Below are positions 1,470-63,531 of a stretch of DNA of 64,000 bases, one piece after another. Location of the stretch: positions 85,760,614-85,824,613 of the forward strand of contig CM059187.1 of the NCBI GenBank assembly GCA_030323885.1, written 5' to 3'. The position numbers were made by a program, and so were the translations under genes. How positions within the stretch are numbered: the stretch's first letter is position 1; each line of letters starts with the position of its first letter. The notes below the pieces were generated by a model. It searched no databases, was not told where the DNA came from, and was given only the letters and a program-made list of their open reading frames with translations. Source of the DNA: Branchipolynoe longqiensis (taxonomy: Eukaryota; Annelida; Polychaeta; Phyllodocida; Polynoidae).

Positions 1470-2455
1470 TGGTGGATGACAGGTCGGGGTCTGGTGGTGA
1501 GTGGTGGTGGGTGGTGGTGGTGGGTGGGGGTGGGTGGGGGTGGGGGTGGATGATGGTGGTGGTGGGTAGTCGTGGGGGGGGGTGGTTGTGGTGGTTGTGG
1601 TAGTGGTTGTGGTGGTGGTTGTGGTGGTGGTTTTGGTGGTGGTAGTATGTAATTGGTGGTGCATGGTGGGTGGTGGGTTGTGGTGGTGGTGGGTGGTGTT
1701 TGTGGTGAGTGGGTGGTGGGTAATGGTGGTTGTGGTGGTTGTGATGGTAGTATGTAATTGGTGGTGTGTGGTGGGTGGTGGGTGGTGTTTGTGGTGAGTG
1801 GGTGGTGGGTAGTGCTGGTTGTGGTGGTTGTGGTGGTTGTGGTGGTTGTGATGGTAGTATATAATTAGTGGTGCGTGGTGGGTGGTGTGTTGTGTGGTGG
1901 CGAGTAGCGCTGGTTGTGGTGGTTGTGGCGGTAGTCTCTAATTAGTGGTGCGTGGTGGGTTGTGGGGTGTGGGTTGCGGATGATGGCTGCTTGAGGGTGA
2001 TGGATGGTGGAAGTTGGTGGTGGATTTGGTGGTTGATGATAATCGGTAGTGGTTGGTAGGTGGGCTGTGTAGGGTGATGGGTGGTGATGGGTGGTGGTGG
2101 GTGGTGGATGGTGGTGGTTGTTGTGTTTGATGATAGTCGGTATGGGGTGGTGGGTGGGTGGCACATGGTGATGGATGGTGGCTGGTCGTGGTAGGTGATG
2201 GATGGTGGGTGATGGGTGTTGGTGGGTGGTTGGTGGGTCGCACATGATGGTGGATGGTGGGTGGTGGGTGGTGGGTGGTGGGCTTAGCAGTGATGTGTGT
2301 AGGTGGGTGGGTCGTACAGGGTGGTGGAGGGTTGGTGATGGGTGGTGTCCTTTGCAGTGATGGGTGTTGGTGGGTGTTGGGTGGGTTGTACAGGGTAGTT
2401 GGTGGCGGGTGGCTTTGCAGTGATGGGTGATGGTGGGTGGTGATGGGAGATATTG
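1470..2455. repeat. GTGGTGGGTGGT minisatellite tract
   Basis: Imperfect tandem units of the type GTGGTGGGTGGTGG, interspersed with GTAGTATGTAATTGGTGGTG blocks near 1645, 1750, 1855 and 1935, so a longer sub-repeat of roughly 90-110 bp exists. The H/P/T-rich minus-strand frames are artefacts. Confidence 0.8.
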
Positions 2456-2462
2456 GTATATA

Positions 2463-3362
2463 GGTCATTCTTTAAAACTGGGCACGAAAGTGTGACATGG
2501 AAACCAAAAGTGAAAACCTTCCAAATAATAGCAAAAAACCTGCCAAATAATAGCCTAATCAAATGTCCTATGAAGGTTTGTATGTTGTGTTTGTTTGTTG
2601 TTGTTTTACATCCTAGCAACATCTAAGGTCATATCAGGATGGGTACCGACTTGTGACAGTACGCACTCATGGCGACTTTATAGTGCTCGCCACTGGGAAA
2701 TCAGGCCGCTCAGTCCCACTCAGTCACACTATCCTGACACTGAGCTAACCAGTCCTTGCCCTATCCTATTAATGCTGAGCGCCAGGCTAGGAAGCAACAA
2801 ATACAAATTTTAAAGTCATTGGTTTGACTTGACCGGGAACCAAACTCCCCACCTTCCACACGCGAGGCCCACGCTCTACCGATTAGGCCACCGTGTATGT
2901 TGTGCATATGTCAGAGTTGAAAGAAATTAATTTCACTTTTTGAATTAGAACTTATGCAAATTGAGCAATACATTAATATCACTCGTGTAACATGAAAATC
3001 AAAGACACATCCATTACCTCATTTTAACATATACAACATAATAAAACAAGATTTGATTGATAACTCTTAAGCCGACAAGGTTATGACTTACAAGAAAAGA
3101 CTGGAAAAATAAGTTGAAAAAAGTTTGGCTACATGCATAGTGTAAATGTGTACATTTTCACTGTTTCACATAAGCACCAAATCACATAAGTAAAGTTTCA
3201 ATTTCTTTATTGGGATAGCTTCAATAAATGTACTATTGCTAACATACTTAATACACAGATGATACAAGAGTTATTTGACTTTCAATCAAATAATGAAAGA
3301 ACAAATTATCAGCATCGTAATGTGGAAAGCAAATATGTGGTGCCCAGTTTTAAAGAATGACC
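2463..3362. mobile_element. Possible TIR element (22-bp perfect inverted repeat ends)
   Basis: GGTCATTCTTTAAAACTGGG plus CA at 2463-2484 is the exact reverse complement of 3341-3362. The 900-bp interval is AT-rich and noncoding and contains a SINE at 2590-2893. The arrangement fits a non-autonomous DNA transposon or foldback element. No transposase ORF and no clear target duplication are seen. Confidence 0.5.
2590..2893 (-). mobile_element. tRNA-headed SINE, full copy with target duplication
   Basis: Read on the minus strand it begins with a tRNA-like head containing GGCCTAATCGGTAGAGCG, resembling an A box. A body carrying the conserved GTCGCCATGAGTGCG-type block follows, and the tail is GTAAAACAACAAC-like. 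It is flanked by an 11-bp direct repeat TGTATGTTGTG at 2579-2589 and 2894-2904, the signature of target-primed insertion. SINEs encode no protein and borrow LINE machinery. It is the same family as the copies at 10.8, 29.2, 29.8, 31.5, 34.3, 42.3 and 44.5 kb. Confidence 0.85.
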
Positions 3363-4092
3363 GATATAGGCATGGAGCTGAGTGTTGTGGTGATGTGGCG
3401 TGGGGTTAGAATATGCTCCAGGATCAGCCATCGGAAAAGTAGAAGTAGAGAGGATGGTGGGTGGGTGGCAGTGGCCTGTACACTGACTGTGGATGTTGGG
3501 AGGTGGGTGTGTATGTGAGGTGAGAGGTGAGGAGTGAGAGTAGGGGTTGGGTGTGGACGTGGCAGGTAGCAGGTGAACGAGGGGCAGCCGATGGATAAAT
3601 GAAAGTTGGAGGCGTGGTGGGTAGTAGAAGGTGTCAGGCTTTAGAAGGTGTTAGAAGGTGTTAGAATGTGTTAGAAGGTGGTATTATGGATGTCAGGATG
3701 CGGCCACTGGATTGAGAGATGCCAGTTGAATAAGTCAGCCGTGCCCGCTTAGTGTTAGGTTGCTCATGTATTAAGCATACATTAAGGGGTTTCTAACAAG
3801 TGTACCTCTTTATTCAGACGCTTACCCAGTCAACAGAAGTTGAAGTTTGATTTTCGGATTTTCAAATTTGGGTGTTCTATTTGTACGCGCCCTCCGATTT
3901 CCGAAGGTAGTATGTGTTTGAAGTGAGGAAATAAAATAATCAGAAAAAGATTTAATACAACGCAACAAAATTAGACTAAATACCTAGGCATCACAACTGT
4001 GTATCACATGTAGCATTATGGTATACATATTCTGATATTGGGTAATTTGTACTAACTACTTTGCTTGTGATTTGGTGGTAGATTAGTTGATT
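2905..4092. other. AT-rich spacer then GGTGTTAGAA-rich tract, no gene
   Basis: 2905-3340 is AT-rich with no sizeable ORF. 3400-3700 is G/T-rich with short GGTGTTAGAAGGTG repeats near 3635-3690. 3700-4090 is unremarkable. No coding, RNA or regulatory signal is supported. Confidence 0.5.
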
Positions 4093-4138
4093 GTTGGGGT
4101 TTTACGTCCTGGCAACATCTAAGCTCATATCAGGGGGG
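4093..4138 (-). repeat. SINE tail fragment
   Basis: Contains TTTTACGTCCTGGCAACATC followed by TCATATCAGG, the reverse complement of the 3' end of the tRNA-headed SINE family. The head and body are missing. Confidence 0.7.
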
Positions 4139-4735
4139 GTTCGTGGTAGATGATTGGGTCTAATTTGTAGAATATGGTAGAAGATGGGAGCTTGGAAATG
4201 CGGTGTGATGAGAGAAATGGGACATTTAGATTTAGTAGAGGTTAGATTTATATCATGAGGGAAATAGATGGTGTGCAGGTGGTGGTAAATAGCAGGTGGT
4301 GAAGCAGGGTAGTCGAGAACTTTCATATAACGAGGACAGTGGGTGATCTGCATTGTGTGGAAGACAACAGATGGTGGAACATAGTAGTCAACAACTTTCA
4401 TATCATAAAGAATAGTTGGTGATCGTCAGTGTATCATAGGAGGAGTGTCAATTTTGGAAGTCAAATGGTTTACTTAACAGTAGCAACCCTTTTTTCACAA
4501 TGTATCCCATTTTTCCAAATTTATCCCACAGAAAATACAGATTAATTCATATCCTGCTGAGTAATGTGCAAATGCTAGTCTAGCCCGATACATTTGTAAA
4601 AGTTTACAAAAGAATAGCAAATGAAAATAAATATGGGGCAAGCGATTTTTCAGGCACGGGGGGGGGGGGTGGTCACCTTTCTTATTAAATGTATTTGGCC
4701 TAACGAGGACAGGGGGTGGTGCGCAGTTGGTGGTA
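4139..4735. repeat. Degenerate edge of the 75-bp satellite
   Basis: Diverged relatives of the satellite occur here, for example GGTGGAACATAGTAGTCAAC near 4373 and GGTGGTATATGACAGAGGGT near 4727, mixed with unrelated AT-rich DNA and a G run at 4660-4671. Minus-strand open frames are repeat-derived. Confidence 0.6.
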
Positions 4736-7010
4736 TATGACAGAGGGTGGAACATGGGTCATAGTGAGTGTTATATTATAACGGATGTGGGTGGTGTGTA
4801 GGTGGTAGATAACAGAGGGTGGAATATAGTTGATGGTGAGTGTTATATGATAACTGACATGGGTGGTGTGTAGGTGGTGGTAGATATCAGAGGGTGGAAC
4901 ATGGTTGATGGTGAGTTGTATATGATAACCGACATGGGTGGTGTGTAGGTGGTGGTAGATATCAGAGGGTGGAACATGGTTGATGGTGAGTTTTATATGA
5001 TAAGGGCAGTGGATGGTGTGTAGGTGGTGGTAGATAACACTGTGTGGAACATGGTTGATGGTGAGTTTTATATGATAACGGATGTGGATGGTGTGTAGGT
5101 GGTGGTAGATATCAGAGGGTGGAACATGGTTGATGGTCAGTGTTATATGATAACGGACGTGGGTGGTGTGTAGGTGGTGGTAGATATCAGAGGGTGGAAC
5201 ATGGTTGATGGTGAGTTGTATAAGGTAGGGCAGGGGGTGGTGTGTAGGCGGTGGTAGATAACCCTGTGTGGAACATGGTTGATGGTGAGTTTTATATGAT
5301 AACGGATGTGGGTGGTGTGTAGGTGGTGGTTGATATCAGAGGGTGGAACATGGTTGATGGTGAGTTGTATATGATAACCAACATGGGTGGTGTGTAGGTG
5401 GTGGTAGATATCAGAGGGTGGAACATGGTTGATGGTGAGTTGTATATGATAAGGGCAGTGGATGGTGTGTAGGTGGTGGTAGATAACACTGTGTGGAACA
5501 TGGTTGATGGTGAGTTTTATATGATAACGGATGTGGATGGTGTGTAGGTGGTGGTAGATAACACTGTTTGGAACATGGTTGATGGTGAGTTTTATATGAT
5601 AACGGATGTGGATGGTGTGTAGGTGGTGGTAGATATCAGAGGGTGGAACATGGTTGATGGTGAGTGTTATATGATAACGGACGTGGGTGGTGTGTAGGTG
5701 GTGGTAGATATCAGAGGGTGGAACATGGTTGATGGTGAGTTGTATATGGTAGGGCAGGGGGTGGTGTGTAGGCGGTGGTAGATAACACTGTGTGGAACAT
5801 GGTTGATGGTGAATGTTATATGATAACGGACGTGGGTGGTGTGTAGGTGGTGGTAGATATCAGAGGGTGGAACATGGTTGATGGTGAGTGTTATATGATA
5901 ACGGATGTGGGTGGTGTGTAGGTGGTGGTAGATATCAGAGGGTGGAACATGGTTGATGGTCAGTTTTATATGATAAGGGCAGTTGATGGTGTGTAGGTGG
6001 TGGTAGATAACACTGTGAGGAACATGGTTGATGGTGAGTGTTATATGATAACGGATGTGGGTGGTGTGTAGGTGGTGGTAGATATCAGAGGGTGGAACAT
6101 GGTTGATGGTGAGTTGTATATGGTAGGGCAGGGGGTGGTGTGTAGGCTGTGGTAGATAACACTGTGTGGAACATGGTTGATGGTGAATGTTATATGATAA
6201 CGGATGTGGGTGGTGTGTAGGTGGTGGTAGATATCAGAGAGTGGAACATGGTTGATGGTAAGTGTTATATGATAACGGACGTGGGTGGTGTGTAGGTGGT
6301 GGTAGATATCAGAGGGTGGAACATGGTTGATGGTGAGTGTTATATGATAACGGACGTGGGTGGTGTGTAGGTGGTGGTAGATAGCAGATGGTGGAACATG
6401 GTTGATGGTGAGTTTTATATGATAAGGGCAGTGGATGGTGTGTAGGTGGTGGTAGATAACACTGTGAGGAACATGGTTGATGGTGAGTGTTATATGATAA
6501 CGGATGTGGGTGGTGTGTAGGTGGTGGTAGATATCAGAGGGTGGAACATGGTTGATGGTGAGTTGTATATGGTAGGGCATGGGGTGGTGTGTAGGCGGTG
6601 GTAGATAACACTGTGTGGAACATGGTTGATGGTGAATGTTATATGATAACGGACGTGGGTGGTGTGTAGGTGGTGGTAGATATCAGAGGGTGGAACATGG
6701 TGGATGGTGAGTTGTATATGGTAGGGCAGGGGGTGGTGTGTAGGCGGTGGTAGATAACACTGTGAGGAACATGGTTGATGGTGAGTGTTATATGATAACG
6801 GACGTGGGTGGTGTGTAGGTGGTGGTAGATATCAGAGGGTGGAACATGGTTGATGGTGAGTGTTATATGATGAGGGCAGTAGGTGGTGTGCGGGTGGTGG
6901 TAGATAACAGGGTGTGGAACATGGTTGATGGTGACTGTTATATGATAAGGGCAGTGGGTGGTGTGCGGGTGGTGATATATAGCAAGGTGTGGAACATGGT
7001 TGACAGCCAA
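4736..7010. repeat. 75-bp tandem satellite, about 30 units
   Basis: The phrase GGAACATGGTTGATGGT recurs at 6093, 6168, 6243 and 6318, giving a strict 75-bp period, and continues through the block. Each unit has the form GGTGTGTAGGTGGTGGTAGA then TATCAGAGGGT or TAACACTGTGT. Several monomer variants alternate (GATAACGGACGTGG, GGTAGGGCAGGGGG and GATAAGGGCAGTGG types). Because 75 is 25 codons, minus-strand frames stay open and give repetitive H/T/Y-rich peptides of up to 179 residues. These are artefacts. Confidence 0.95.
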
Positions 7011-11049: not shown

Positions 11050-11817
11050 GTGAGAATAACTGCTTTATTCATGGAAGGTCGCAGGTTCGAATCCCGGCTT
11101 GTGGCTTTTGTGAGGGACCAGTGGAAATTGGGAAAACAGATGCATAGCCTTCTTTAGAAATTGACCCTGCATGATCTACGATAGCATCAGAAATTAAACT
11201 GTTACTGCCACATACACTATGATTATGACATGCGTAGATTCAACCAGCAGCCTCTGTGGATGCTGCTACCCGCATTGGGAGGAGGAGGATCAGGAGGTGG
11301 TGGTGGTTAGGGAGGGATGCGGGTCATGAGATAATGGAGGACATCCGCTCGGAGACGTCACACATCACGTGACTAATCCCGAGGTGATATGAACCAGTTT
11401 CAAACGGTGAACAGCTGAAGGGTTCCATTATTCAGTCGGAGTTAGCTGACTGTGACTGTTGACTATTCAAGGTCTCGTTCCTTGGATTGGCATTCCTGCC
11501 CATGTTTGTGCATATATGCGCATTAATATAGTCTTCTATACATATAGTAGTCATATACCGAAAATTGTATGGATAGTGATAAACCCTTTATTGCAGGTAA
11601 TAAACTCTGTAGTGTTTCCTCCCCCCCCCCCTCTCATGGGGTGGTAGGGTGGGCTCCCAGTATGCACCTCGCCCCCTCGGCCCCTTGCCCCCTCCCCACC
11701 TCGGGGGGGGGGGCTGCTTTCGCCATTCGGTCGGAAGCAATTGAACGTGTCGGATGTGTCGGACGTTTTCCCACCTTCCCCGCCTTCCCAGCCACTCCCC
11801 CGCTGCTCCCCCGCCTC
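11050..11817. other. Spacer upstream of the fossil ORF1
   Basis: No conserved coding frame. It includes a GGAGGAGGATCAGGAGG purine block near 11280, C and G runs near 11620-11715 and AT-rich stretches. The ORF1 frame happens to be open back to 11569, but that part is low-complexity (P/S/C-rich) and is probably not protein. Confidence 0.45.
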
Positions 11818-12936
11818 ATGATGCCAGCAGCCAGGTTCTGCTCAGTGTGCGCAGAGTGCCACACCAGTCTCACGGGGGATGATTGCATGCGCTCCCGGAA
11901 AGACGCGGGCTACCGGAGAGATGCGAGCATGGCGGAACAGCGGCGGACACGGGTCTCCAGAAAGGAGAGGGATGAGAGCCTGGAATCTACAAGTGACTAT
12001 CTGGGGGCCTCTCAGACTTTGGAAGCCTTCGAGGAGGAGCTGGCCCGGCAGGAGAGTGATGTCGAGAGGGAGCTGCACAGGAAGATCACGGCCACATTCG
12101 GCCGTAAGCGGGAGTGCATGCTCCAACTCCATTTGGAGGAGATAGAGGCCGAGGTGGAGGCCCTGAACTTTCAAGGGCGGTCCGGCAGCACCAGCCATGA
12201 GAAGGGAGGCGGTCGCCGGCGCAGCCACAACAGGTGTGGAGGCAGATCGAGGTCCCGGGGCTCAGGCGATTCGGCCCGCTCGGAGGAGGAGGCGGCCATG
12301 GAGGCCTGGATGGCCCATGACTCCAAGGACCAGTCACACCAAAGGAGGAAGAAGTCATCGCGGTGCCACCACTACTGCCGCTCACGTAGCAGCAGCAGCA
12401 GCGGGTCCAGGAGCTCCAGCCGGTAACGACGCCTATGCCGCAAGTACAGTCTAACAAACTTTTCGGACAAGGATGCGAAGGACATGATGCTCCATGACAT
12501 TGTTGTTGCTAACTTGAAGTGGGCAGTGGCATCGAAGTCGATGTCGGTGGCGGATAAGGATGGAGTCATGAACCATGTAGGCTACATGGTCATGAAGGCG
12601 TCAGCCGATTCCTACCCAAATAAGGCATACCAAGGCTACGACAAGGCTATCCATAGGATAGCCATAAACAGGGGTATGTGGGCCTTCGTGGGCGGGAACA
12701 TGGATGTGTCCATGGAGCATTTCACGGTGGGGAAGTGCGCCCATCAGGCCAGCAGGTCTGGAGCACACTCGGCTAGGCGCCCTGTGAGCCGCAAGGCATG
12801 GAACAGCACGGCAGGCTGCCCAAGGGGCAATGGCTGTGAGGATCACCACAACTACAATTTCTGCTGGGACCCAGCCCACCACAGACCAGACTGCAAGGAC
12901 CGGAGCTCCAATGCTTTCAAGCTAGCGAGGTGGTAG
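11818..12936 (+). pseudogene. Gag-like ORF1 of a DIRS/Ngaro-type YR retrotransposon, interrupted by one stop
   Basis: ATG at 11818 opens a frame with an N-terminal C-X2-C-X3-H-X7-C motif, a central acidic and then Arg/Ser-rich region (SRSSSSSGSRSS near the end), and an in-frame TAA at 12424. The same frame resumes to 12936 with a block containing GYMVMKASADSYPNKAYQGY and DKAI. That block aligns with GYMGHLAYMCMHAITNNY...AYRGYDRAI in ORF1 of the 58.4-kb element. The C-terminus keeps a zinc knuckle in which C-X4-H-X4-C remains but the first Cys is Tyr (TAC). ORF1 of such elements probably binds RNA in a capsid-like particle. I found no RT, RNase H or recombinase within 2 kb downstream. The homology is strong; the clade is inferred from the second copy. 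Confidence 0.8.
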
Positions 12937-15021: not shown

Positions 15022-15266
15022 GGTCGTAATGCGAGCATTGCGCTTGATGCGTGGAGAGGAAGAGACCCTCCCCCCGCCTCCCCGGTCGTCGCGCAGCATT
15101 CGCACCTCGCGCGACGCCCGCCTCTCAGCTTTCTCCTTCGCCCTCCCACGGGCCCGCTGCTTTCTCACCTCCCCCGCCACTGCCCTCCAGCCTTCCCTTA
15201 TAAGGCCGCCCGCCGGCCTCCCTCAGTCACTCGCCCTCCAGCCTCCTCGATGCTCTCCCTTTTTCT
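15022..15266 (+). repeat. A1 arm of the gag-only element
   Basis: Starts GGTCGTAATGCGAGCATTGC and ends CTCTCCCTTTTTCT. Same length as A2 with six substitutions. The left flank has no copy at the right end of the element. Confidence 0.85.
15196..15235 (+). promoter_or_regulatory. TATA-like core promoter in A1
   Basis: CCCTTATAAGGCCGCCCGCC is followed about 22 bp later by CCCTCAGTCACTCG, an initiator-like context. A2 has a T-to-C change in this TATA (CCTCATAAGG), while the isolated A copy at 46.5 kb keeps TTATAAGG. Promoter function is inferred from motif and position. Confidence 0.5.
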
Positions 15267-15326
15267 TTGGCTATCCACCACCGCTGCTCCACCTCGGACC
15301 GCTGCATCTCCTCGGACCGCTCCACC

Positions 15327-16248
15327 ATGCCCGGACACGGAAAGGGCAAGGGCCGCAAGAGCCCGCGGACAACCCGCGGCCAGGACCCGTCCCCCGCCGC
15401 CACCTCAAGCGACTCTGCCGGGGGCAGTACACGCCCAATACGAACGCTACAGCCGCCTCACCACTCAAGCCTCGCCCGCCCCGCCCCCCGCTTACCTCCA
15501 GGAGGCGGCCGAGCACACCCCAGCATCCGCGGCCGACGCCGTCCGCGAGATCCTGGCCTCCGCCGAGGCGCACCACACCGTCAGGCGCCAAGGTGTGCCT
15601 AGTGACTACATCTTCCCCTCGGACCTGGTGGAGAGGGGCCCTGAACGGAAGCCGGTGAAGAGGGGCGAGGCTACCAAGGACGAGTACAACCTCGCCCTCC
15701 TCACCCTGATCAGCCATCCAGCCTTCCCCACCCACTCCGTCCAGGGCCTCTACCACCACCACCTCACCGTGATGAGTGACAACCTCGTGCATCCGTAGCC
15801 TACCGTCCGCCGTTATTCCGAAACGATTTTCACATGGATAGCGGACGGGAGGCTCCCCCACGGATGGCACGATCCAGTTGCCCTCAACATGCTCAGGATG
15901 GACTCCCTCACCACGCCCGCCGCCCTCACCCAAGCCGCCCCGGCAGCACCAGCCCCCCGATGTGAGGATTCTCCCCGAGGCGCACACCTGCCCCGGGCCC
16001 AAGTCGACTCCCGCATCGCCTACGACAGGCAGACTCACGGGGCCCCCTGCCCCGCCTGGAACTGTGAGCCCGCCTTGTGCGATCGGGCCCCCGTCGGGGA
16101 GGCCCACGGCGAGGTGGGCAACCAACACCGGCACGTATGCACCTACTGCGCCAACGTATGGCGCATACTCACGATGGACAGCGAGGCCGGCTGCCTCACC
16201 AAGCAAGCCCGTGAGCGCCAGACCCCGGCCGCCTCGGCAGATTTTTGA
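15327..16248 (+). pseudogene. Gag-like ORF of the split-repeat element, one frameshift and one stop
   Basis: ATG at 15327 in a good context (CCACCATGC) begins MPGHGKGKGRKSPRT, a basic start, then a Ser/Thr/Pro stretch. Around the G run near 15420 the plausible frame changes (a one-base insertion would explain it). It continues as a Pro/Ala-rich linker and a globular part including AVREILASAEAHH, YIFPSDLVERG and YNLALLTLISHPAFP. A TAG at 15796-15798 interrupts the frame, which then continues to 16248. The C-terminus has C-X4-C-X4-C followed by HRHVCTYC, a likely zinc-binding domain. About 300 residues in all. No polymerase or recombinase is encoded. A nucleic-acid-binding structural role is inferred from composition and context. 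Confidence 0.55.
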
Positions 16249-16794
16249 TCCGCCGGCCCCCCCCCGGCCGGCCCGGGGGGCCCTCCCCGGCGCCTCACCC
16301 ACACCACTGCCGACAACCCTGCGACCACCACCGACAACCCCCCAGCGACCACCATCCTAAACACCGCCCAGACAGAGCCGGGGACCATCACCTCGCACCT
16401 CACACAGCCCAGCCTCACGAGGAACCCTCCCCAGACAGCACAGCCGCCGACCATCACGACACCGCATTCATCAACCCGCCCGTCCCGACCCCGACCCCCA
16501 CCCCTCCCAGCCCTGAGGACTTCGCTGCCCCCCTGTTAGACCCTCGCCGGACCTCCTCACCGCATCTCTCCAAGGAGCGGGCCTCCCCACCCTTTTTTGG
16601 CCGCCTGCTCCCTGTCGACGTAGGCCCCGGACTCACCACCACACCCAGACCTTCAACTTCCCCAGCCTCCGCCAAGAACCCCGCCCAAGCCTCGCATGGG
16701 TAACCCCCCCGCGCTGCCCAGGCCCTGGACCTCAGCCGCGGCCTATGCCTCGGGCCCCCGCATCGGGCGCGCCTCGAGCCCTCTCCTCCTCTTT
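16249..16794. other. C-rich 3' region of the gag-only element
   Basis: GC- and C-rich DNA between the gag-like frame and B1. The three plus frames give P/T/S-rich strings without motifs. Its role is unknown. Confidence 0.5.
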
Positions 16795-17011
16795 TGGTGG
16801 AGGGCTCTTCGGCACCCCTCGCCACAAACTCTAAGCTCCTTATCTCCTGAGGTGCCAGCCTTAAGCTTATTAGCTCCTTCTTACCGCCTCCTTGTACTGT
16901 TTATCTCATGAGGCGCCTGCCTTAGCTGATCTCACTGTTGCCCTGTACATACTGTGTTTTCCTGAGGTGTTTTCAATAAACACCGTCTTGCCTTCTTCCT
17001 TTTCGCGCATC
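16795..17011 (+). repeat. B1 arm of the gag-only element
   Basis: Begins TGGTGGAGGGCTCTTCGGCA and ends TTCCTTTTCGCGCATC, directly joined to A2. Contains TTTTCAATAAA (poly(A)-signal-like) near 16971. B2 has 7-bp and 16-bp insertions relative to it. Confidence 0.8.
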
Positions 17012-17256
17012 GGTCGTAATGCGAGCATTGCGCTTGATGCGTGGAGAGGAAGAGACCCTCCCCCCGCCTCCCCGGTCGTTGCGCAGCATTCGCACCTCGA
17101 GCGACGCCCGCCTCTCAGCTTTCTCCCTCGCCCTCCCCCGGGCCCGCTGCTTTCTCACCTCCCCCGCCACTGCCCTCCAGCCTTCCCTCATAAGGCCGCC
17201 CGCCGGCCTCCCTCAGTCACTCGCCCTCCAGCCTCCTCGACGCTCTCCCTTTTTCT
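17012..17256 (+). repeat. A2 arm of the gag-only element
   Basis: Same 245-bp length as A1 with six mismatches. It is followed by a 45-bp linker rich in CCACCCACCCACCCA that is absent after A1. Confidence 0.85.
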
Positions 17257-17301
17257 CCACCCACCCACCCAACTATCTATCTAACCTCTCTCCCTTACAG
17301 C

Positions 17302-17541
17302 TGGTGGAGGGCTCTTCGGCACCCCTCGCCACGAACTCTAAGCTCCTTATCACCTGAGGTGCCAGCCTTAAGCTTATTTTACATTAGCTCCTTCTTACCG
17401 CCTCCTTGTACTGTTTATCTCATGAGGCGCCTGCCTTAGCTGATCTCACTGTTGCCCTGTACATACTGTGTTTTCCTGAGGTGTTTTCAATAAAGCACCT
17501 CCTTTCCCACCTCCGCCATGCCTTCTTCCTTTTCGCGCATC
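17302..17541 (+). repeat. B2 arm of the gag-only element with poly(A) signal
   Basis: Matches B1 and keeps TTTTCAATAAAGCACC near 17487. Its right end, TTTTCGCGCATC, coincides with the B1/A2 junction, defining the right boundary of the element. Confidence 0.8.
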
Positions 17542-19578: not shown

Positions 19579-21837
19579 CATCATCATCATCATGCTGTCG
19601 GTCGCGATGTGACAAAGCCTGCTTTCATTACTTGACTGCCGCTCTCCATTTAGCTCTCTGCTGTGAGAGTGATATCCATGAGTCGGTCTTAATGTCTCTC
19701 ACCTTCAGGTTTCTCTTGATGGTATCCTTGAACTGGAGACGAGGGCACCCTCTCTTTCTGTAACCAGAAGGCAGTTGAGAATAGAGGATCTGCTTTGGTA
19801 GCCTGTCTGATGACATCCTCATGAGGTGTCCAGTCCACCGGAGATTCTTTTTGATCAAACGATCTTCCATAGAGGGCAGCCCCGTCCGTTTGAGTATTTC
19901 CTTATTTGTCACTTTGTCCTTCCAGGTTAGCCTCATGATTGAATGCAGATGTGGCATCATGAAGGAATGCAGCTCTTTAACCTGTTGTCTGTACACTGTC
20001 CAGGCCTTGGCTCCGTATAGTAGGGTGGATAGCATGACTGCACGGTAGATCTTGCCTTTGACCTGCATGGACACATGGTGGTTGTTCCAGAGTCTCTGGC
20101 GTAGTCGGCCAAAAGATGCGCTAGCCTTGGCCGTCCTCCTCTTTATTTCAGCATCAATGCGTCCATCACTTGATATAGTGCTTCCGAGGTAGGTGAATTC
20201 TGGAACAGAGTTCAGCTTGTTTCCGTCTCGGGTTCTTGTAGAGTTGGGTTAGTACATCACCTCCGTCTTCTTGATGTTAATCTTCAGGCCGAACTTCTTT
20301 GATGCATCAGAGAAAGCGTCCACTATTTTGTGGATATCTTCAACAGAGTGGGCAACCAGTACACTGTCATCTGCAAATAACAGCTCTCTCACCAGTATCC
20401 GAGTAGTCTTGGTCTTCGCTCTGAAGTGTGCAACATTGAATAGGTCAGCGCATTGTCTGGACTGTATATAGATGCCATCCCCCATGTCTCGGAATGCTTC
20501 ATCGAGCATTGATGATAGGAAGATGGAGAAGAGCGTGAGGGCCAGTACACAACCTTGCTTGACCCCATTGGTAACCCCGAACGATTCCGAGACTTCCCTG
20601 CCAACACTAACATTCACCATCATTCCTGTATGTAGAGCCTCGATCATAGTTGTGAATTTCTCTGGGCATCCATATGTCCTCAGTAGCTGCCATAGCCCGG
20701 TCCTCCCGACTTTATCAAACGCTTTAGTGAAATCGACAAATACCATGTACAGTAGTCGGTCCTGCTCAATGCACTTTACTTTACTTGTAGCTGTCGGACA
20801 CAAAATATCATATCCATGGTGCTACGGTTACCTCTGAAGCCACACTGTGACTCCGGAACTACATCAGGTGTTATGTGAATAGATAGCCTGTTGCGGAGGA
20901 TCCTGGCGAAGATCTTGCCTGCTATCGAAAGAAGAGAGATTCCTCTATAGTTCCCACAGTCTGTTCGATCACCTTTCTTGTAGATGGTTACAATGCTGGC
21001 ATCCTTTCATGCTTGGGGTACAGAACCCTCCTCCCAGGCATTGGTGATTAGTTGGTGCAGTCTGTTGAACAGATTGTCTCCTCCATGCTTCCATACTTCA
21101 GTAGGAATTCCATCACCCCCAGGTGCTTTGCCATCTTTCAGGCTGGTGATTGCTCTAGCCATTTCATCCACGGTTGGAATCTCATTGCAACATGTTTTGG
21201 TAATGCACTGCTGGATGTTGTCCAGACCTTTGTGATCTATGTCACCCGGGACGTTGAGTAGCTTCTGGAAGTGTTCACTCCATCTTGCCACAACTCTCTT
21301 GCTGTCAGAGAAGGTCTCCATTCCATCTGTTGATTTCAGGTGAAGAGGTCCCTTCTTCATGGGTCCCCACACTTCCTTCAGTCCATTGTAGAAGCCCTTC
21401 ATGTTGTTTCTGTCTGCAGCTCTCTGCAGCTCCTCTGCCTTCATTTCCCACCAGTCTGACTTCAGTGCATGTGTGCATTTTTCTAGCAATCTGCAGGCAT
21501 CTTTGTATGCTGCAGTGGTGGATCTAGTGTTCCTGGTCTGCAACACTCTCTGGTGGGCTTGGTCTCTTCTGCTCATAAGATTCTGTAGCTCCTGATTGTT
21601 GGGGTCGAACCAGTCCTGATGTTTTCTGTCTGGCTTGCCAAGATATGTTTTAGCTGTGTTGTATACAACCTGCTGCAAAGCTGCCCATTCCTCGTCGGGT
21701 GTTGGGCTTTCCTTCTCCTCCCATTGGGCGAGAGCACTGTCCATCTCCAGCTTGAAGCTCTCCCTGTGACTGATGGTACTTAGTTTTGCTGTGTTGAGCT
21801 TGGTCGGTTTATTTGTCCCTTGCATGGTGTACATGTT
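19579..21837 (-). mobile_element. 5'-truncated LINE, family A, with (ATG)n 3' tail
   Basis: Minus-strand coding order is pre-RT region (21834-21007), RT palm (20803-20249) and C-terminal region (20074-19628), ending in (ATG)n read as CATCATCATCAT at 19579. Three shorter copies of the same 3' end lie at 28976, 35556 and 45417. The endonuclease is missing, typical of incomplete target-primed reverse transcription. The clade is not assigned. Confidence 0.88.
19628..21834 (-). pseudogene. LINE-A reverse transcriptase, two stops and one frameshift
   Basis: The pre-RT part ends ...KDGKAPGGDGIPTEVWKHGG. After a TGA near 20995 the frame continues DASIVTIYKKGDRTDCGNYR with GISLLSIAGKIFARIL (RT motif 1). 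A 5-bp tandem duplication in CTTTACTTTACT near 20775 shifts the frame. The next segment has VFVDFTKAFDKV (motif A), TNGVKQGCVLALTLFSIF (motif B) and LLFADDSVLVAH (motif C, intact Asp pair). A TAA near 20248 interrupts after KKTEVMY, and the frame resumes TRDGNKLNSVPEFTYLGSTI. The C-terminal part has STLLYGAKAWT and NLRWTGHLMRMSSDRLPKQI. Known role: target-primed reverse transcription. This copy cannot be active. Confidence 0.88.
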
Positions 21838-26462: not shown

Positions 26463-28398
26463 TTAATTCGGCCTGGCTTCAAACCTGGATTCATCGTGTT
26501 GCTCGAATAGACAATTGTGTGCAGGATTCAATGCATTAGTTTTCATCTTGACTACATATTGCATGGCCAGTTTGATTCTCCCGTTGTTAAGTGATGGTTC
26601 ATTGGCGTCGACGTAAAGGCTCTGAACCAGTGAGTTGCAGAAGGCCCCAAGGGCCAGGCGCAGTCCCTGCTGGTGGATCGTGTCTAGCAGCCCAAGATAT
26701 GATTTCCTTGCGGAACCGTATACTATGCTGCCGTAATCCACTCGTGACCGAACCAAGGTTCTGTACGCGGAGAGCAGAAAATCTCTGTTCGCTCCCCACT
26801 CTGAGCTGGACAGCACCCTCAGAATATCCAGTGCTTTCAGGCATCTTGTTTGCAGGTACTTTATATGTGGCACAAAAGACAGTTTTGCGTCGAGAATGAG
26901 GCCCAGAAATTTGGTTTTTCTCAACGACTTTAATGGGATCCCCATCCAGGGTCAGCTCCGGTTCTGCATGCATTCTATGCAGCAGGCAGAAGTGCATGCA
27001 GACTGTTTTGGTCTTGGAAAATTTGGAACCGTTCAGAACTGACCATCGATGGATCCCATTTATGCTTGGTTGTAGCTGTCTCTCTATGACATTCATGTTA
27101 GCACCGCTGTAATATAAAACAAAGTCGTCCACGAAAAGACTACAGGAGACCCCCCTCTTTACAGCATCAGCAATACCATTGACCTTGACCCCGAAAAGGG
27201 TCACGGCCAGTATGCTCCCTTGAGGTACTCCTAGTTCCTGTGAGTGTAGGCTGGAATAGGTAGTCTTGACACGGACGCGGAAATGCCTGAAGGCTAAAAA
27301 GTTCCTGATGAAAATTGGCAAGTGACCACGAAGGCAAATCGCATGAAGATCCTCCATGATGCCATGCTGCCACATTGTGTCATAGGTTTTTTCGAGGTTG
27401 AAAAAGACAGCCACAACCTGCTCCTTCTTAAGGAAAGCATCTCTTATGAAGGTCTCCATGTGCCCCAAATGGTCGAGGGTGCTGCAGCCCTGCCTGAAGC
27501 CACATTGAAGGTTGGACAGGTGGTGCCCTGACTCCAGTAGCCAGACGAGGCGGTTGTTTACCATGCGCTCCATGGTTTTACAGACTCAGCTTGTGGGGGC
27601 TATGGGACGATAGTTGTGGGCTTCACTCTGGTCTTTACCGGGTTTGGGAATCGGTATTACTGTCACCTCCCGCCAAGAGGCGGGGATGACACCCGACTCC
27701 CAGATGTTGTTGAAGAGTTGAAGCAACAGTCTCAGTGCATGTTCAGGGAGATGTTTCAAAAATTGATAATGAATTCCATCAGGTCCAACTGCTGTTTCAT
27801 GCAAGCTTTCCAAAGAACGCCTCAACTCATCCATACTGAATGGGGAGTTGTAGTGCTCCTCGCCATCAGAAGAAAAGTCTGAGAGCTTTTGCTCTTGGCG
27901 TTCCTTGATGGCCCGAAAGTGCGGGAGGCAGTTTGCCAAAGACGAGTTTCCAGCAAAGGTGCGAGCCAATTCTAAAGAGCAGAATTCTAAAGAGCACCAG
28001 CTTTTCAGCAGTCGGTCCCCTGTGGAATTTACGCTGAGCTTTCTTTCGTTCCTTAATAGCCCTCCTACAGCCGTCATCTAACCATGGAGGCGTCAAACGC
28101 TTGGGAGTTGCCAAGGTCTTCGGAACAGTTTTCTCTGCGATCCATCTCAGCATCTCAGTGAAGGCATCGATATCACTGATGTCTGGAGTGAACTCCTCGC
28201 GACATAGGATCTGGAAGGTGGGCCAGTCAGCTTTACAAAGCCGCCAGCTCCTCTCTATGGGAGATGCCCCCCTGCAATTAAGAATAATTGGGAAGTGGTC
28301 GCTCCCGCAGAGGTCATCCCAGACCATCCACAAAAAGTCCAGCTCCAGTTCTGGTTCTACAATGCTGAGATCGATGGCGGAGTATGTTCCGTAGCCGG
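26463..28398 (-). pseudogene. LINE-B endonuclease tail and reverse transcriptase, multiply frameshifted
   Basis: The open frame begins inside the endonuclease with SAIDLSIVEP and DDLCGSDHFPI (the C-terminal SDH motif). Overlapping frames 28333-27866 and 28077-27586 cover the linker and the start of RT (VTVIPIPKPGKDQSEAHNYR, PIAPTS). Frame 27573-26599 carries NLQCGFRQGCSTLDHL, VAVFFNLEKTYDTMW (motif A with the catalytic Asp replaced by Asn), LGVPQGSILAVTLF (motif B) and LFVDDFVLYYS (motif C). Frame 26945-26463 carries the thumb and C-terminal region (LSSSEWGANRDFLLSAYRTL, RSRVDYGSIVYG). Several indels separate the frames. It is inactive. Confidence 0.85.
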
Positions 28399-30370: not shown

Positions 30371-30648
30371 AGGCATGGTAGGTTCAACAATTATACAGTG
30401 CATAGCTTGTATGGGATCCTGATCACGGCACAAGTGTTGTAGGGTGTGATGAAAATGGGAAATATTGCGCTTAGAGCGGGACTCGAACCGACATCTCTTT
30501 GCATTCCAGGCCAGTGTGTTAACCATTACACAACCTAGGCTCCCTGATGTAACCACGCTACCCACGCCTGACTTATGCAACAAGTAGCCGCAGAGACAGG
30601 TGATTGAGGGGCTCCTTGCCTGAGAAGTCAGTGCAGACCAATACACTA
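30371..30648 (-). mobile_element. Second SINE family (tRNA-headed)
   Basis: On the minus strand a tRNA-like head with GTGTAATGGTTAACACACTG (A box region) and GGTTCGAGTCCCGCTCTAAG (B box region) is followed by CAATATTTCCCATTTTCATC. Related copies lie at 42516-42753 and 42839-43087. The head can form an acceptor-like stem (GCCTAGG with the 3' TCTAGGC in the better copies). Confidence 0.75.
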
Positions 30649-42515: not shown

Positions 42516-42753
42516 TAACCCGGGCTGGACCCGCGCAGGATGTATCTGGGTCGGTCTGGGCAGCTACTGCCACGGAGGTGATGAAAATGGGAAATATTGC
42601 GCCTAGAGCGGGACTCGAACCCACAACTCTTTGAATTCCGGGCCAGTGTGCTAACGATTACACCACCTAGGCTCCCTGATATCAACACACTACCCATGCC
42701 TACCTGTCCAAGTGGTTACTTGCTGAAATGTCAGTGCAGACTACTACACTCAT
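42516..42753 (-). mobile_element. SINE-B copy
   Basis: TTGCGCCTAGAGCGGGACTC, GAACCCACAACTC and AACGATTACACCACCTAGGC form the reverse-complemented tRNA-like head. Confidence 0.78.
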
Positions 42754-46507: not shown

Positions 46508-46522
46508 TACCCCTGTCACATT

Positions 46523-46800
46523 GGTCGTAATGCGAGCATTGCGCTTGATGCGTGGAGAGGAAGAGACCCTCCCCCCGCCTCCCCGGTCGTCGCGCAGCAT
46601 TCGCACCTCGCGCGACGTCTGCCTCTCACCCCTCTGTCCTCCCCCTCCCCCGGCCTGCTGCTTTCGTACCTCACCTGTCACCGCCCCCCTGCCTCCCTTA
46701 TAAGGCCGTCCGCCGGCCTCCCTCAGCCACTCGCCTTCCTGCCCTCCTCCGCGCTCTGCCTTTTTCCTCCACCCACCCACCCATCTCTCTTCAAGTCTCC
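46523..46800 (+). mobile_element. Isolated A arm of the split-repeat element
   Basis: Starts at exactly the same base as A1 and A2 (GGTCGTAATGCGAGCATTGC) and keeps CCCTTATAAGGCCG. It diverges more strongly after 46615 and is followed by the CCACCCACCCACCCAT linker seen after A2. No B arm follows, so this is a truncated A2-linker remnant. The overlapping frames are noncoding. Confidence 0.75.
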
Positions 46801-46937
46801 TCTTCCTCCTCGCCGGCGCGCTGCCAATGCACAAAATCACTTTTATTCGTCAAGAAACGTCAAACGCTTCAGCGTCAGTGCAACGTATTGGTAGCATGCG
46901 GCTGACGTTGTGTGGAAAAAAAAAAAAAAGTTTGGCG

Positions 46938-46992
46938 CGCCGTCCTGATATGACCTTAGATGTAGCTAGGACATAAAACAACAAAGCAACAG
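46938..46992 (+). repeat. SINE tail fragment
   Basis: CCGTCCTGATATGACCTTAG and AGGACATAAAACAACAAAGC. Confidence 0.7.
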
Positions 46993-47435
46993 TTTGGCTC
47001 AACGACCCTCACGCGCGCGCAGCGTGTGCCTAACGTTATTCCAGCGATGTCGACGTGCTTCGGAAGTCGACATAATGTTGGTACCCGCGCGTTGTCGCGG
47101 GTTGTCAGTCGTTGAATGTTTTGTGCAAGCACAAAACTTCGCCGATCCGATGATGCGCACCGCCGACCCTCGTTGACCGTCGCCGTCCATCAACGAATAC
47201 CAACGTGCGCCTAACGCGCGCATAATGCTTCCTGATGTTTCCCGACATTCTGCCAAAAAATCAGATACGTCGACGCGCGTTGGCGAGAAGCGTCATAATG
47301 TGACAGCCCCATATGCTGTAGTTTTGGATGCTTACGTCATCACAACATCTAAGGTCATATCAGCGATATATGGAAGCTTGGCCCTTGGTTCTGACTTTTC
47401 AGCTTTAAGGCAAAGTCAAGTCACAAAGTGAGCGT

Positions 47436-52671: not shown

Positions 52672-52775
52672 GCTTTGATAGTGTAATGGTTAGCACAGTG
52701 GCCCCAGCATGGCAAGAGATATGGGTTCGAATCCTGTACTAGGCATAATATTTCCCATTTTCCCCACCTCCATGG
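52672..52775 (+). repeat. SINE-B head fragment (tRNA-like)
   Basis: GATAGTGTAATGGTTAGCAC and TATGGGTTCGAATCCTGTAC followed by TATTTCCCATTTTCC, matching the SINE-B head. Confidence 0.65.
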
Positions 52776-57825: not shown

Positions 57826-58410
57826 GAAGTATAATAATAATAATAACATTTATTTCCACATGATCAATGTACACACAAGTTGATATTTATATCAGTAATT
57901 TGTTCACATGAAAAAGGAGAAAGCAGAACTACAATACTTATGAGGTGCAAGTAACAACAGGTGGCAGCACGCCAGCACGAACAGTGCCTAGTGTAGACTG
58001 TTCCACCCGAGGCTAGTGGCCATCCCCCCCAGGGAGGTTATATGTGCTACTAGGCTGGAAAATGACATGTCATTTCTCTATTCTGACCATGGTGGAAGAA
58101 ACCAGCGGCCTGGAAGAAAGCAATCTCAGCATTGAGCATGTTGGTGAGGCTAACATGCGTAATTTGCGAACGAGGCTGTCTATTTCTGTTTTCCTCGCTC
58201 TTCCTTTCCCTTTCTCAAGTGCAATCCACAGTTAATATATTCAGAATTTTTAATATTTTGCTAAGATGTAGTGAACACTGAGGTAAAAAATACAGGTTAA
58301 AATCAAATGACCAAATCTTTAAAAGTAGGCCATTTTCGCTGGTATGCCTTAAAATGTATCACGCTGTCGCAAACTGATATTTCTTTTATCTCCAAATGTA
58401 TATAAGATTA
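57826..58410. other. Left flank of the Ngaro-like element
   Basis: ATAATAATAATAATAACATTTATTTCC at 57830 looks like the 3' end of a minus-strand LINE (AAATAAATG then (ATT)n). The rest is featureless. Confidence 0.4.
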
Positions 58411-58635
58411 TGTGGTGTGTAACTAGTTACGCAAATATTATTCGAGCAGAGTGTAAGTTAGTCTTTGGTCAAACGGCCCGGTGGGACAGTGCAGCTCTCA
58501 TGTTTGGGCAGCACTGTGCTGCTTTGAAGTCGGGCTGCTAGTGGGCAGCCCACATCCGGTTACTGCAGCGCGCCGGTTGGCCGCGTGCGTCTGCTACATA
58601 CTGTATCTGCCTCCACTCGCCAGGAAAATTTGCTT
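58411..58635 (+). repeat. A1 split direct repeat
   Basis: TGTGGTGTGTAACTAGTTAC to CAGGAAAATTTGCTT, identical to A2. It marks the left end of the element and probably contains the promoter, although no TATA is seen. Confidence 0.95.
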
Positions 58636-58779
58636 GGTTCGGACGTGTCAGCTGCCGTTGCTGCCGTCTGCTGCCACGTGCTAGTGCGGACAACTGTCGA
58701 GTTGTCGGACTTAGGGTGGTAGATCTCAAGTCGGCTGGCCCATAGCCGGACATTGGTCTCCGTTGTACTAATTGACAGG

Positions 58780-59899
58780 ATGGGGATAGATATCTGCCAG
58801 GGGTGTGGTGATGAACATGAAGCGCCCCGTGGAGCCAAGTGCAAGGTGATAAAGGCAAAAGTGTCGAGACGGGCCGGTCAAGTTGGAGGCACTGGAGGAC
58901 ACAGACTCACAGTCCGCTGTCGGGGGACTGGAGGAGACGACGGACAAAATGTTGGCGATGTCGTTAGGCGAAATGAGTGAAGTGAAAGCGGCACGGAAAA
59001 CCGGGCTGAGTGTAGTGGAGGTAGAAGCGGATGAGGAGGAGCTGGAGCTGCGACGTAGGCTAGCGCAACGGGTGTTGGAGAAGCGCAAAGCAAAATTACG
59101 GGCTGAATTGGAGAGGGCGCTAAGTACGGATGAGGAACTAAGCGAGCACGGGAATGAGTCACGATCACGCAAGAAGAAAAGGGAGAAAAGGAAGAAAAAG
59201 AAAAAGAAGAGCAGTGACAAGAAACAAGGCAGGGAAGTGGATGCAGGGAGGAATCCTGATACAAGCCCAAGCAGTGACTCGTCATCGAGTTCATCGTCGG
59301 AATCATCAGACACAGACAGTAGCAGGGACAGGAGTCGGGAACGGAGGAGGCGTCGCCGCAAAAAACGCAGTAAGTTTGCCTTGGATAAATACACCAAGGG
59401 GAGGAAAAATGTGAACAAATTGAATTTTCAAGAACTCATGTATGCGGCATGTCTCTGGGGTTCTAAGAGAGCTAAGAAGGCGGATATGGATATGGAGGCA
59501 GTGATGGGATACATGGGACATCTCGCATATATGTGCATGCACGCCATAACTAACAACTACTCGGATGAAGCCTACAGGGGTTACGATAGAGCTATCCGGG
59601 ATAAAGCAAAAGAGAAGGGTTTGAGAGCGTTCAAGATGGGAGACAACGGTCTATCCTTGCTCCACTTCAATATGGACAACTCACGATCATACAAGGAAGT
59701 CAAAAAGCCAAGGGCGACATACAGCAAGGGCGATAGTGAGGGCAGAACGATGGTCTCGCAAAAGGTAAAAGGGTCATGTTTCGCGCATAATTACAACAAA
59801 GAAGGTTGTACTCGGGAAAAGTGCTCATGGGATCATCATTGCCTCACTTGTCGCAGTAAAAGCCATGTGGCAGAGGCATGCCCACAGAAAAAATTCTGA
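58780..59899 (+). CDS. ORF1, gag-like zinc-finger protein (frame break near 58875)
   Basis: ATG at 58780 begins MGIDICQGCGDEHE with C-X2-C-X3-H-X7-C, in a different frame from the main 339-codon frame that is open from 58883, so one indel separates them. The main frame has an acidic and coiled-coil-like segment (residues 30-100), a Lys/Arg/Ser-rich segment (100-175), and a conserved domain at about 185-270 (GYMGHLAYMCMHAITNNYSD, EAYRGYDRAI) shared with the fossil ORF1 at 12.5 kb. The C-terminus has C-X9-C-X4-C-X3-H (from residue 299), overlapped by the CCHC knuckle C-X2-C-X4-H-X4-C (from residue 320). Its likely role is RNA binding and particle assembly, inferred from position and zinc knuckle. 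It ends 59899; the 59865 frame overlaps it. Confidence 0.85.
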
Positions 59900-60434
59900 C
59901 TTTCAAACCATTGTGTGGGTGGCTGCGGGTGTGAGGGACGCGGAGGAGGAAACCGTTGCAGTGAGTCGGCGCCGGCCGAGGGGGATTACGTTGGTAATCC
60001 CCTTGAAGCAACCGCCGTCGGGCGAGCTAATCACTGCCCACACACAGCGGAGGGGGACCGACGGGGCAGCAAACACCAACAAGGGGATTAGCGCAACACC
60101 GGACAGTGCCGATCAAAGGGACCGGTGCGGGGCCGGTGAAACTTCGTCGGATGGGGGTGGTGTTATCCGAACACCACCAGGCGGGGATCTCGTGTCTGAG
60201 ACCGCTGGTGGCTGTATACAAAACCAAGATGCAGCCATCAACAAAAGGGAAGGAAGGGGTGGTCGCACCTCGGGGGACTTTGGCGCTTCGCACAAAGAAC
60301 TGAGCAATCGCAATGAGGACTGGTTCCGGGTGATCAGTCCAGAAGCAGCCCGTAGCGGGGGGGGGAGAGCTGGTTTGCACGTTGTGGGTAGCCGACAGGG
60401 AGAGCCGCTACAGTTGTACTCAACGATATATTGA
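59865..60434 (+). CDS. Possible N-terminal extension of ORF2
   Basis: An open frame of 189 codons starts at ATG 59865, overlapping the end of ORF1 by 35 bp. It is hydrophilic and low in motifs, and leads to a G run at 60357-60365 where a one-base slip would join it to ORF2. It could be the natural N-terminus of the polymerase polyprotein, a separate protein, or chance. The overlap with ORF1 is what favours reality. Confidence 0.35.
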   Translation: MWQRHAHRKNSDFQTIVWVAAGVRDAEEETVAVSRRRPRGITLVIPLKQPPSGELITAHTQRRGTDGAANTNKGISATPDSADQRDRCGAGETSSDGGGVIRTPPGGDLVSETAGGCIQNQDAAINKREGRGGRTSGDFGASHKELSNRNEDWFRVISPEAARSGGGRAGLHVVGSRQGEPLQLYSTIY

Positions 60435-62097: not shown

Positions 62098-63054
62098 TTT
62101 CAGATTGGGCAAGGCTAAAACTGGAATGCGGGCAGTACGAAGATGCCCATTATGCCGAATCAACAAAGCTTGCCAGATCTATCCAGGTCAAAGCGTACCA
62201 TGAGTTCTGTCTGATCTTCGCTGACCAACTGTCACCATATCCATGTTCAACTACACAGACATGCATGTATATGTCTTTTCTAGCTAGACGCATGTGTTAT
62301 AACTCAATCAGGCAGTATCTGAGTGCGCTCAATAACCATCTGAAAGATCTGGGATGGGCCCCGATTGACTACACTAGTCACAGGATAAAGAAGTGCATGG
62401 CGGGAATTAGAAGAACTTTCGGCGATATGCCCAGGCAGGCTGCGCCCCTATTACCGAAGCAACTGAGGTTAGTGTTTAACAGAATGCTCAACACCAAAGG
62501 ACACGTAGTGCTCAGGGCAGCAATGCTGGTGTCATTCAGGGCCTTATTACGTAAGTGCCATGTATCGGACTCGGATACAGCACTATTAAGATCGGACTTC
62601 GTATTCTACGAATGGGGGATGATAGTGAGAGTCAGGAAGTCCAAGACGATACAGTTTCGTGAACGTGTACATCTAATCCCTGTCTCGAAAGTAGCGGATA
62701 GGGCGCTGTGCGCGGTTGCACTGGGTCGAAACTCACTTCCGAGAAGTCAATGCCGGGGGCCAGGCACATGCGTTCAGGCTACCTCGGGGGGAGGGGTCGG
62801 TATCGATGCCTTACACGTTCTACTTATCATCGTTGAGATTATTATGTGCCAGAGCCGGTTTGAATCCGGGCGAATTCTCGACGCATAGCCTGAGACGGGG
62901 CGGGGCGACTTTCCTCCGCATGTCTGGGGCGTCGATCCTGGAGATAAAGGAAAGAGGAGACTGGAACTCAGATGCAGTGTTTCAATATCTGAAGGCATCG
63001 CTGCAGGAGAGGCTGTCTAGAGACATGAGGGTCGCTACATTGCTCGCGGCTTGA
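62091..63054 (+). CDS. ORF3, tyrosine recombinase, one frameshift
   Basis: The first frame (to about 62715) starts just before the ORF2 stop. It has an N-terminal core-binding part (SIRQYLSALNNHLKDLGW) and the first catalytic Arg in RALLRKCHVS (codon at 62550). A one-base shift near 62715 leads into the second frame, which carries GLNPGEFSTHSLRRGGATFL (H-x-x-R at 62884) and GDWNSDAVFQYL (nucleophile Tyr at 62986). All catalytic residues of the family are therefore encoded, across two frames. It integrates the circular cDNA by site-specific recombination. The shift disables this copy unless it is recoded. Confidence 0.9.
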
Positions 63055-63079
63055 AACCTAACTAACTGGTTGGGTGTTT

Positions 63080-63186
63080 GGGCCTTTTAGAGGGTACCAG
63101 CCAGAGGTTCTACTCATCCAACTATATATATATGTATATGTGTTCTTTCATTGTGTTCTTTGTAGGGGTACGTAGCGTACAATAAT
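63080..63186 (+). repeat. B1 split direct repeat
   Basis: GGGCCTTTTAGAGGGTACCA to GCGTACAATAAT, identical to B2. Its last T is also the first T of A2. Confidence 0.95.
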
Positions 63187-63410
63187 GTGGTGTGTAACTA
63201 GTTACGCAAATATTATTCGAGCAGAGTGTAAGTTAGTCTTTGGTCAAACGGCCCGGTGGGACAGTGCAGCTCTCATGTTTGGGCAGCACTGTGCTGCTTT
63301 GAAGTCGGGCTGCTAGTGGGCAGCCCACATCCGGTTACTGCAGCGCGCCGGTTGGCCGCGTGCGTCTGCTACATACTGTATCTGCCTCCACTCGCCAGGA
63401 AAATTTGCTT
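63186..63410 (+). repeat. A2 split direct repeat
   Basis: Identical to A1 over 225 bp; directly follows B1. Confidence 0.95.
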
Positions 63411-63424
63411 CATAATAAACGGAG

Positions 63425-63531
63425 GGGCCTTTTAGAGGGTACCAGCCAGAGGTTCTACTCATCCAACTATATATATATGTATATGTGTTCTTTCATTGTG
63501 TTCTTTGTAGGGGTACGTAGCGTACAATAAT
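63425..63531 (+). repeat. B2 split direct repeat, right end
   Basis: Identical to B1. Preceded by 14 bp (CATAATAAACGGAG), which includes AATAAA. Confidence 0.95.

Follow-up and report, generated by a model that had tools for sequence, protein, structure and literature searches.

A gag-bearing, enzyme-less family of split-direct-repeat elements in Branchipolynoe longqiensis, very probably mobilised by complete Ngaro-type relatives

The element at positions 15022-17541 of the window is very probably a non-autonomous Ngaro-type YR retrotransposon with split direct repeats, copied by RT and integrated by YR in trans, both supplied by complete relatives of the L031/L043 type. The window is the whole stretch of DNA analysed, 64,000 nt of B. 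longqiensis (assembly GCA_030323885.1, CM059187.1:85,760,614-85,824,613, forward strand). The Ngaro-type assignment is putative and at the level of superfamily, and the RT, RNase H and YR in question are known from the relatives only.

Layout, ends and targets

The element reads A1-[gag remnant]-B1-A2-[45-nt spacer]-B2. Its parts, together with a lone A copy elsewhere in the window, are the following.

15022-15266, + strand: A1, left split direct repeat, holding the element's first base (97.6% identity to A2 over 245 nt; first base constant in 31 aligned loci)
15199-15228, + strand: putative core promoter in A1, recognised by sequence motifs: TATAAGG (15199-15205) and an Inr-like TCAGTC 24 nt downstream
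15424-16245, + strand: gag remnant with helical domain and C-terminal zinc pattern (43% identity to P0001; 16 protein relatives)
16249-16703, + strand: remnant of the pol N-terminus, 5' of RT (motif run common to the L031 frame leading into RT; 77% DNA match to L031 over 78 nt)
16795-17011, + strand: B1, 217 nt (BLAST match to B2)
17011-17012, + strand: seamless B1/A2 junction (the arms adjoin at all 18 loci where it occurs)
17012-17256, + strand: A2 (97.6% identity to A1)
17257-17301, + strand: spacer, 45 nt, with CACCCACCC box, CTAAC, pyrimidine tract and CAG (kept in 15 of 15 A-spacer-B units)
17302-17541, + strand: B2, 240 nt, holding the element's last base (BLAST match to B1)
46523-46790, + strand: lone A copy with the start of a spacer (87.6% identity; first base the same as in A1, flank unrelated)

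An earlier sequence-only reading had proposed the order A1-ORF-B1-A2-B2. That order was seen, except that the spacer parts A2 from B2. The seamless B1/A2 junction it described was confirmed: the last base of B1 is 17011 and the first base of A2 is 17012, with neither gap nor overlap, and such a junction is what would be expected of a circle junction. B1 and B2 match at 88% in BLAST, the difference lying mostly in 23 extra nt in B2. The predicted TATA box in A and AATAAA in B were also present, the latter at 16975-16980 in B1 and at 17489-17494 in B2. The element is flanked by ...ATATGTT on the left and ATAAGTAC... on the right, and, as had been claimed, there is no duplication of the target.

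No B was found downstream of the lone A copy. This copy lies in a segment (46513-47306) in which it is flanked by CTGTCACATT and an inverted match of it, possibly within a terminal-repeat element. Elsewhere the window contains LINE-like RT frames at 20249-21834 and 26463-28333 (-) (RVT_1 E 4e-19 for 26602-27573), tRNA-like matches in dispersed repeats at 30467-30540, 42600-42672 and 52672-52745, possibly tRNA-derived SINEs, and a satellite array at 4714-7003 in which a 75-nt unit is repeated about 30 times, with periods of higher order at 374 and 449 nt.

The A arm was searched against the 1.85-Gb host assembly, where the best 40 of 2,792 candidate places were scored. The resulting sample of 35 loci consists of 34 fetched stretches, which cover the best-40 matches outside the window, and the window itself; as selection was by score, it is biased towards complete A arms. 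The B1/A2 junction was present in 18 of the 35 loci, and the two arms abutted in every one of them. At 14 of these loci A1 lay in the same stretch (window, L009, L012, L016, L017, L018, L020, L021, L024, L031, L033, L034, L035 and L038), while at four (L028, L030, L036 and L042) the junction was visible from A2 only. Single long A...B units were found at six loci (L014, L015, L027, L032, L039 and L041) and, with a truncated B, at L037. Short A-spacer-B units with the element ends occurred at four (L022, L025, L026 and L040), plus L011, again with B truncated. The remaining five loci (L010, L013, L019, L023 and L029) had an A arm and no recognised B end. As for coding content, gag without pol was found in eight sampled composites (window, L009, L012, L016, L017, L020, L034 and L035), and gag also in four single long units (L014, L027, L032 and L039); the gag core was missing from six loci (L015, L018, L021, L033, L037 and L041), and L038 retained more of pol and YR. 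Two loci had features of their own: in the gag-less element at L021:602-4208 part of the post-gag region forms about ten tandem repeats with a step of about 141 nt, and an element without gag core at L024 contains, at 2095-5523, a frame of 1,143 aa in which RT-like sequence and a zinc knuckle are recognisable, presumably a Ty3-type insertion.

The ends checked as constant: the same A1 start and B2 end recurred across the sampled loci. Flanks were compared for 31 left ends, 24 right ends and 21 two-ended insertions. The left flanks differ from one another, yet TT immediately precedes A in 30 of 31 (the exception is L013); position -4 is C in 19 of the 31, and position -3 is A in 19 of the 31. 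Of the 24 right flanks, 20 have A directly after B; L016 and L036 were excluded from this count, the last bases of their B2 being altered and followed by C, and the figure becomes 20 of 26 if both are counted. Under the base composition of the window, the chance of these counts is 2e-33 for TT and 1e-8 for A. None of the 21 two-ended insertions showed a target duplication of at least 3 nt. The target form is (C)ATT^A, with CAT common to the target and the B end (GCATC), a match that would be expected if recombination requires short identity.

Repeat pairs are alike within elements. Averaged over 14 elements, the difference between A1 and A2 is 2.7%, compared with 5.8% between elements, and none of 10,000 random pairings was as close as the own pairs; B1 and B2 of 12 elements likewise were closer in own pairs (0 of 10,000 permutations). 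The nearest arm was the own partner in 16 of 28 cases for A (ties scored as own) and in 19 of 24 for B, and the difference between B1 and B2 of L034 reached 0.286. This pattern fits copying from one template at insertion followed by drift, plus noise or exchange.

Complete relatives and the gag-only form

Two complete relatives with the window element's ends were found. L031 (C8:64008300-64015800) has an A arm 93% like that of the window, the same spacer and the same B end, a seamless B1/A2 junction and TT...A flanks, and thus repeats the A...B1-A2-spacer-B2 plan. Its interior holds a gag whose frame is broken, an RT frame, a stretch resembling RNase H, and a YR frame; the domain matches lie below the Pfam cut-offs (RVT_1: E 9e-7, 29.2 bits against 29.6; Phage_integrase: E 0.002, 18.3 bits against 27.1). 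Absence of a methyltransferase separates Ngaro from PAT and DIRS1 elements; Pfam found no methyltransferase domain in the three L031 frames, but it also gave no match there to its RNase H family. L043 (C4:73724900-73731400) is colinear with L031 over the whole element at 84% and has the same layout, an A arm 86% like the window's, and gag, RT and YR frames that are all open, with the motifs YVDD (RT), an RNase H-like TDN stretch, and R, HxLR, W and Y (YR). When the genome was searched with the L031 YR, 107 of the 121 matches scored among 29,028 candidates were free of internal stops; these were counted by YR alone, irrespective of arms.

A second Ngaro-like element with RT and YR, at 58407-63531 of the window (the 58-kb element), follows the same A1...B1-A2-B2 plan, with B1 and A2 overlapping by 5 nt:

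58407-58635: A1
ending at 63186: B1
63182-63410: A2
between A2 and B2: 14-nt spacer
63425-63531: B2

Its arms had been judged unlike those of the element at 15 kb, and BLAST indeed gave no match between the two elements at E <= 0.01; similarity to L031 is distant (RT E 6e-6, YR E 3e-6). On account of the unlike arms, the sequence-only reading had called for a different helper, and it had asked whether an autonomous relative with the same arms carries RT and YR. L031 and L043 answer to both, as they share ends and layout with the window element and carry gag, RT/RNase H and YR, so that elements of their type, rather than the 58-kb element, are the candidate helpers.

Set against L031, what remains in gag-only copies is the initial ~1,520 nt plus a short segment of the pol N-terminus; RT, RNase H and YR are absent. 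The window copy groups with L009 and L013 (95%). In the best 40 of 2,731 candidates (43 rows scored, 40 main and three second pieces), which are spread over many contigs, the 545-nt region from the end of gag to B1 is covered for 492 nt or more with 86-100% identity. This region cannot separate gag-only from gag-less copies. Since all 40 top rows carry the post-gag deletion structure, the enzyme-less form has been amplified.

The gag-only form is a mosaic: its 5' part can be exchanged with complete elements, and its 3' half is its own. In 150-nt bins, the divergence of the gag-only copy L017 from L031 and L023 is 1-11% as far as roughly position 1200 and 12-30% thereafter, while gag-only copies lie within 1-9% of L017 at 1201-2100; further on, their B arms differ by type. 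The breakpoint falls somewhere from about 1120 to about 1220, where gag, ahead of its zinc part, aligns poorly. The window subfamily has a different 5' gag half, 7-19% from L017. We take this as the probable outcome of recombination between co-copied RNAs.

The element had been said to hold only a zinc-binding gag-like ORF. The zinc pattern is there and the enzymes are missing, but the frame is broken and a piece of the pol N-terminus is present: an in-frame stop lies at 15796-15798, and relative to L009, the closest relative, the N-terminal part is shorter by about 260 nt. Read through the stop as X, the frame 15424-16245 matches P0001 at E 4e-50 (43% identity over 242 aa). Profile searches yielded 16 unnamed protein relatives, which have in common a helical domain and a C-terminal C..WN...C...H...H.C..C pattern; in P0006, residues 241-350 form a block of predicted helical domain with pLDDT 87-97. 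Pfam reported no family of note among the 16 relatives, no sequence relative was found among solved structures, and fold comparison of the helical domain gave no significant match. The name Gag, to be taken as putative, is based on position, on the zinc pattern and on the genes that accompany it in the complete relatives. Likeness to the gag of the 58-kb element is weak. A second degenerate gag-like region with two ORFs lies at 11569-12936, where the part of 150 aa is similar to the gag of the 58-kb element (E 3e-13) and not to the one at 15 kb.

Purifying selection on gag in the gag-only lineage was considered and withdrawn after dN/dS had been split into 5' and C-terminal parts. The comparison began with 18 gag loci and later used 16 (L010 and L019 dropped; L012 ungrouped). 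Between subfamilies, set by B-arm type and compared in pairs that are not independent, dN/dS was 0.35-0.48 (codon bootstrap 0.24-0.70), against 1.05-1.67 when these pairs were read in either of the wrong frames; two of the B-arm groups are not recovered in the gag tree, where L034 falls with L016 and L035 with L017. The signal is carried by the 5' part (0.22-0.34), and because this part is common to complete elements, selection may have acted in those elements. In the private C-terminal part of the gag-only lineage, dN/dS was 0.60-0.70 (all pairs 0.70, bootstrap 0.51-1.02), which is not clearly below 1, compared with 0.30 in three complete-type copies; close copies gave about 1 (window against L009, 1.27). 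Gag in the gag-only copies may be a passenger, may be required as RNA, or may be of use. Gag-less copies amplify too, and the six loci of this kind mean that retention of gag is not a demonstrated selected state.

Expression signals, route of copying and rival explanations

The TATAAGG/TCAGTC pair is found at the same spacing in A1 of all 12 elements listed and occurs three times in the whole window, twice inside A copies. In all 15 A-spacer-B units compared, L031 included, the spacer has, in this order, a CACCCACCC-type box, a pyrimidine tract and CAG ahead of B, and CTAAC is present in 12 of them (not in L031, L038 and L040). These motifs are like a 3' splice acceptor. A crude acceptor rule matches the spacer in nine of ten elements with A2 (it misses L034) and also matches within gag in three of 13 elements. 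As for a donor, no GTRAGT was found in the 13 elements scanned; GTGAG stands near the gag end in 12 of 13, where it is coding sequence and its conservation may stem from coding. In Trypanosoma cruzi, SIRE provides a splice acceptor. It corresponds to A2, about 30 bp and B2 of VIPER and is a non-autonomous form (PMC6681497).

We propose the following route. RNA polymerase II would initiate in A1, read through B1 and stop at the poly(A) signal of B2; as B1 has an AATAAA of its own, read-through past it has to be assumed. The resulting RNA would lack most of A1 and the tip of B2 and would contain B1-A2 whole. After packaging, RT and RNase H from complete relatives of the L031/L043 type would copy the gag-only RNA, B1-A2 serving as the template that restores the joined ends of a circle, and the relatives' YR would recombine the B/A junction into (C)ATT^A without duplicating the target. 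The family would have originated by loss of RT, RNase H and YR, with gag, the pol piece and its own 3' half kept; its 5' 1.1-1.2 kb is subject to exchange with complete elements. Recombination or some other route is required to account for the single units, six long and four short, whose ends are normal. A fuller picture can be drawn, in which complete, gag-only, gag-less and A-spacer-B forms make up a tiered system in one genome and gag-only elements renew their 5' gag half from complete ones by template switching. The spacer acceptor, conserved in all of these forms, and the donor near the gag end would then produce a gag message that bypasses the B1 poly(A) signal, splicing would sort message from genomic RNA, and the gag-only tier would either provide the complete tier with Gag or be its competitor. 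Taken jointly, these steps are tentative and rather unlikely.

The single units invite a different account, namely that A-gag-B and A-spacer-B are two separate DNA units with the same ends, integrated by YR as circles and often in tandem, for which the RNA-templated logic of split repeats would be unneeded. All ten carry both element ends, with TT on the left in 10 of 10 and A on the right in 8 of 10, and the B/A order of a tandem is that of a circle junction. However, separate units should group by type, whereas A1/A2 and B1/B2 are alike within elements beyond chance; L031, L043 and the unrelated 58-kb element, with its 14-nt spacer, share the plan; and single units would also result from recombination between A1 and A2 or B1 and B2. 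We regard this account as improbable.

It is very improbable that the window element is a single decay product of a complete element, without family life. Its broken gag would suit such an origin, but the post-gag structure shared by all of the best 40 matches, on many contigs, and gag without pol in eight composites argue against it. Nor is it credible, save to the slightest degree, that the element is an LTR retrotransposon or that its 17.0-17.5 kb part is a local tandem duplication. The right end (A-spacer-B) does carry promoter and poly(A) signal in an LTR-like manner, yet A-spacer-B stood at both ends of an element in none of the 35 loci, the target is not duplicated and the complete relatives encode YR, while recurrence of the junction at 18 loci excludes a local duplication. 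A non-autonomous YR retrotransposon served in trans by its complete relatives is thus the reading we prefer.

Relation to known elements and significance

The cycle of YR retrotransposons, with split repeats, a circle and duplication-free recombination, is mostly a model. In the Ngaro superfamily (order DIRS), split direct repeats run A1 ... B1-A2-B2 (PMC9210276). The window family is like Ngaro in its split repeats, lack of target duplication and the gag, RT and YR of its complete relatives, and unlike it in lacking RT, RNase H and YR itself and in the spacer between A2 and B2. The 58-kb element is built alike, with 14 nt from A2 to B2, but its arms are unrelated to those of the window family. 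SIRE, compared by layout only, resembles the short A-spacer-B units (PMC6681497); SIRE is without gag, in contrast to the window family. TR-GAG is a non-autonomous retroelement that keeps gag only (PMC12477816); it and gag-only Copia elements are bounded by LTRs, whereas the window family has split repeats and YR in its relatives. Decapod DIRS1-like elements are YR retroelements with gag (PMC2685390, PMC3266345), and they differ in having inverted terminal repeats and an internal complementary region instead of split direct repeats.

Retention of gag alone had been called unusual for split-repeat elements. In the open-access literature searched, no gag-only split-repeat family was found; the kind is known, and we did not find the combination of gag-only content and split repeats described. 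The claim is weakened by the gag-less forms and by the precedent of SIRE. One genome holds complete elements beside gag-bearing, gag-less and minimal ones, all of which end alike and follow a sharp target rule. With this natural deletion series and the 107 stop-free frames among 121 scored YR matches, the cis-requirements, the target choice and the role of Gag should be readable.
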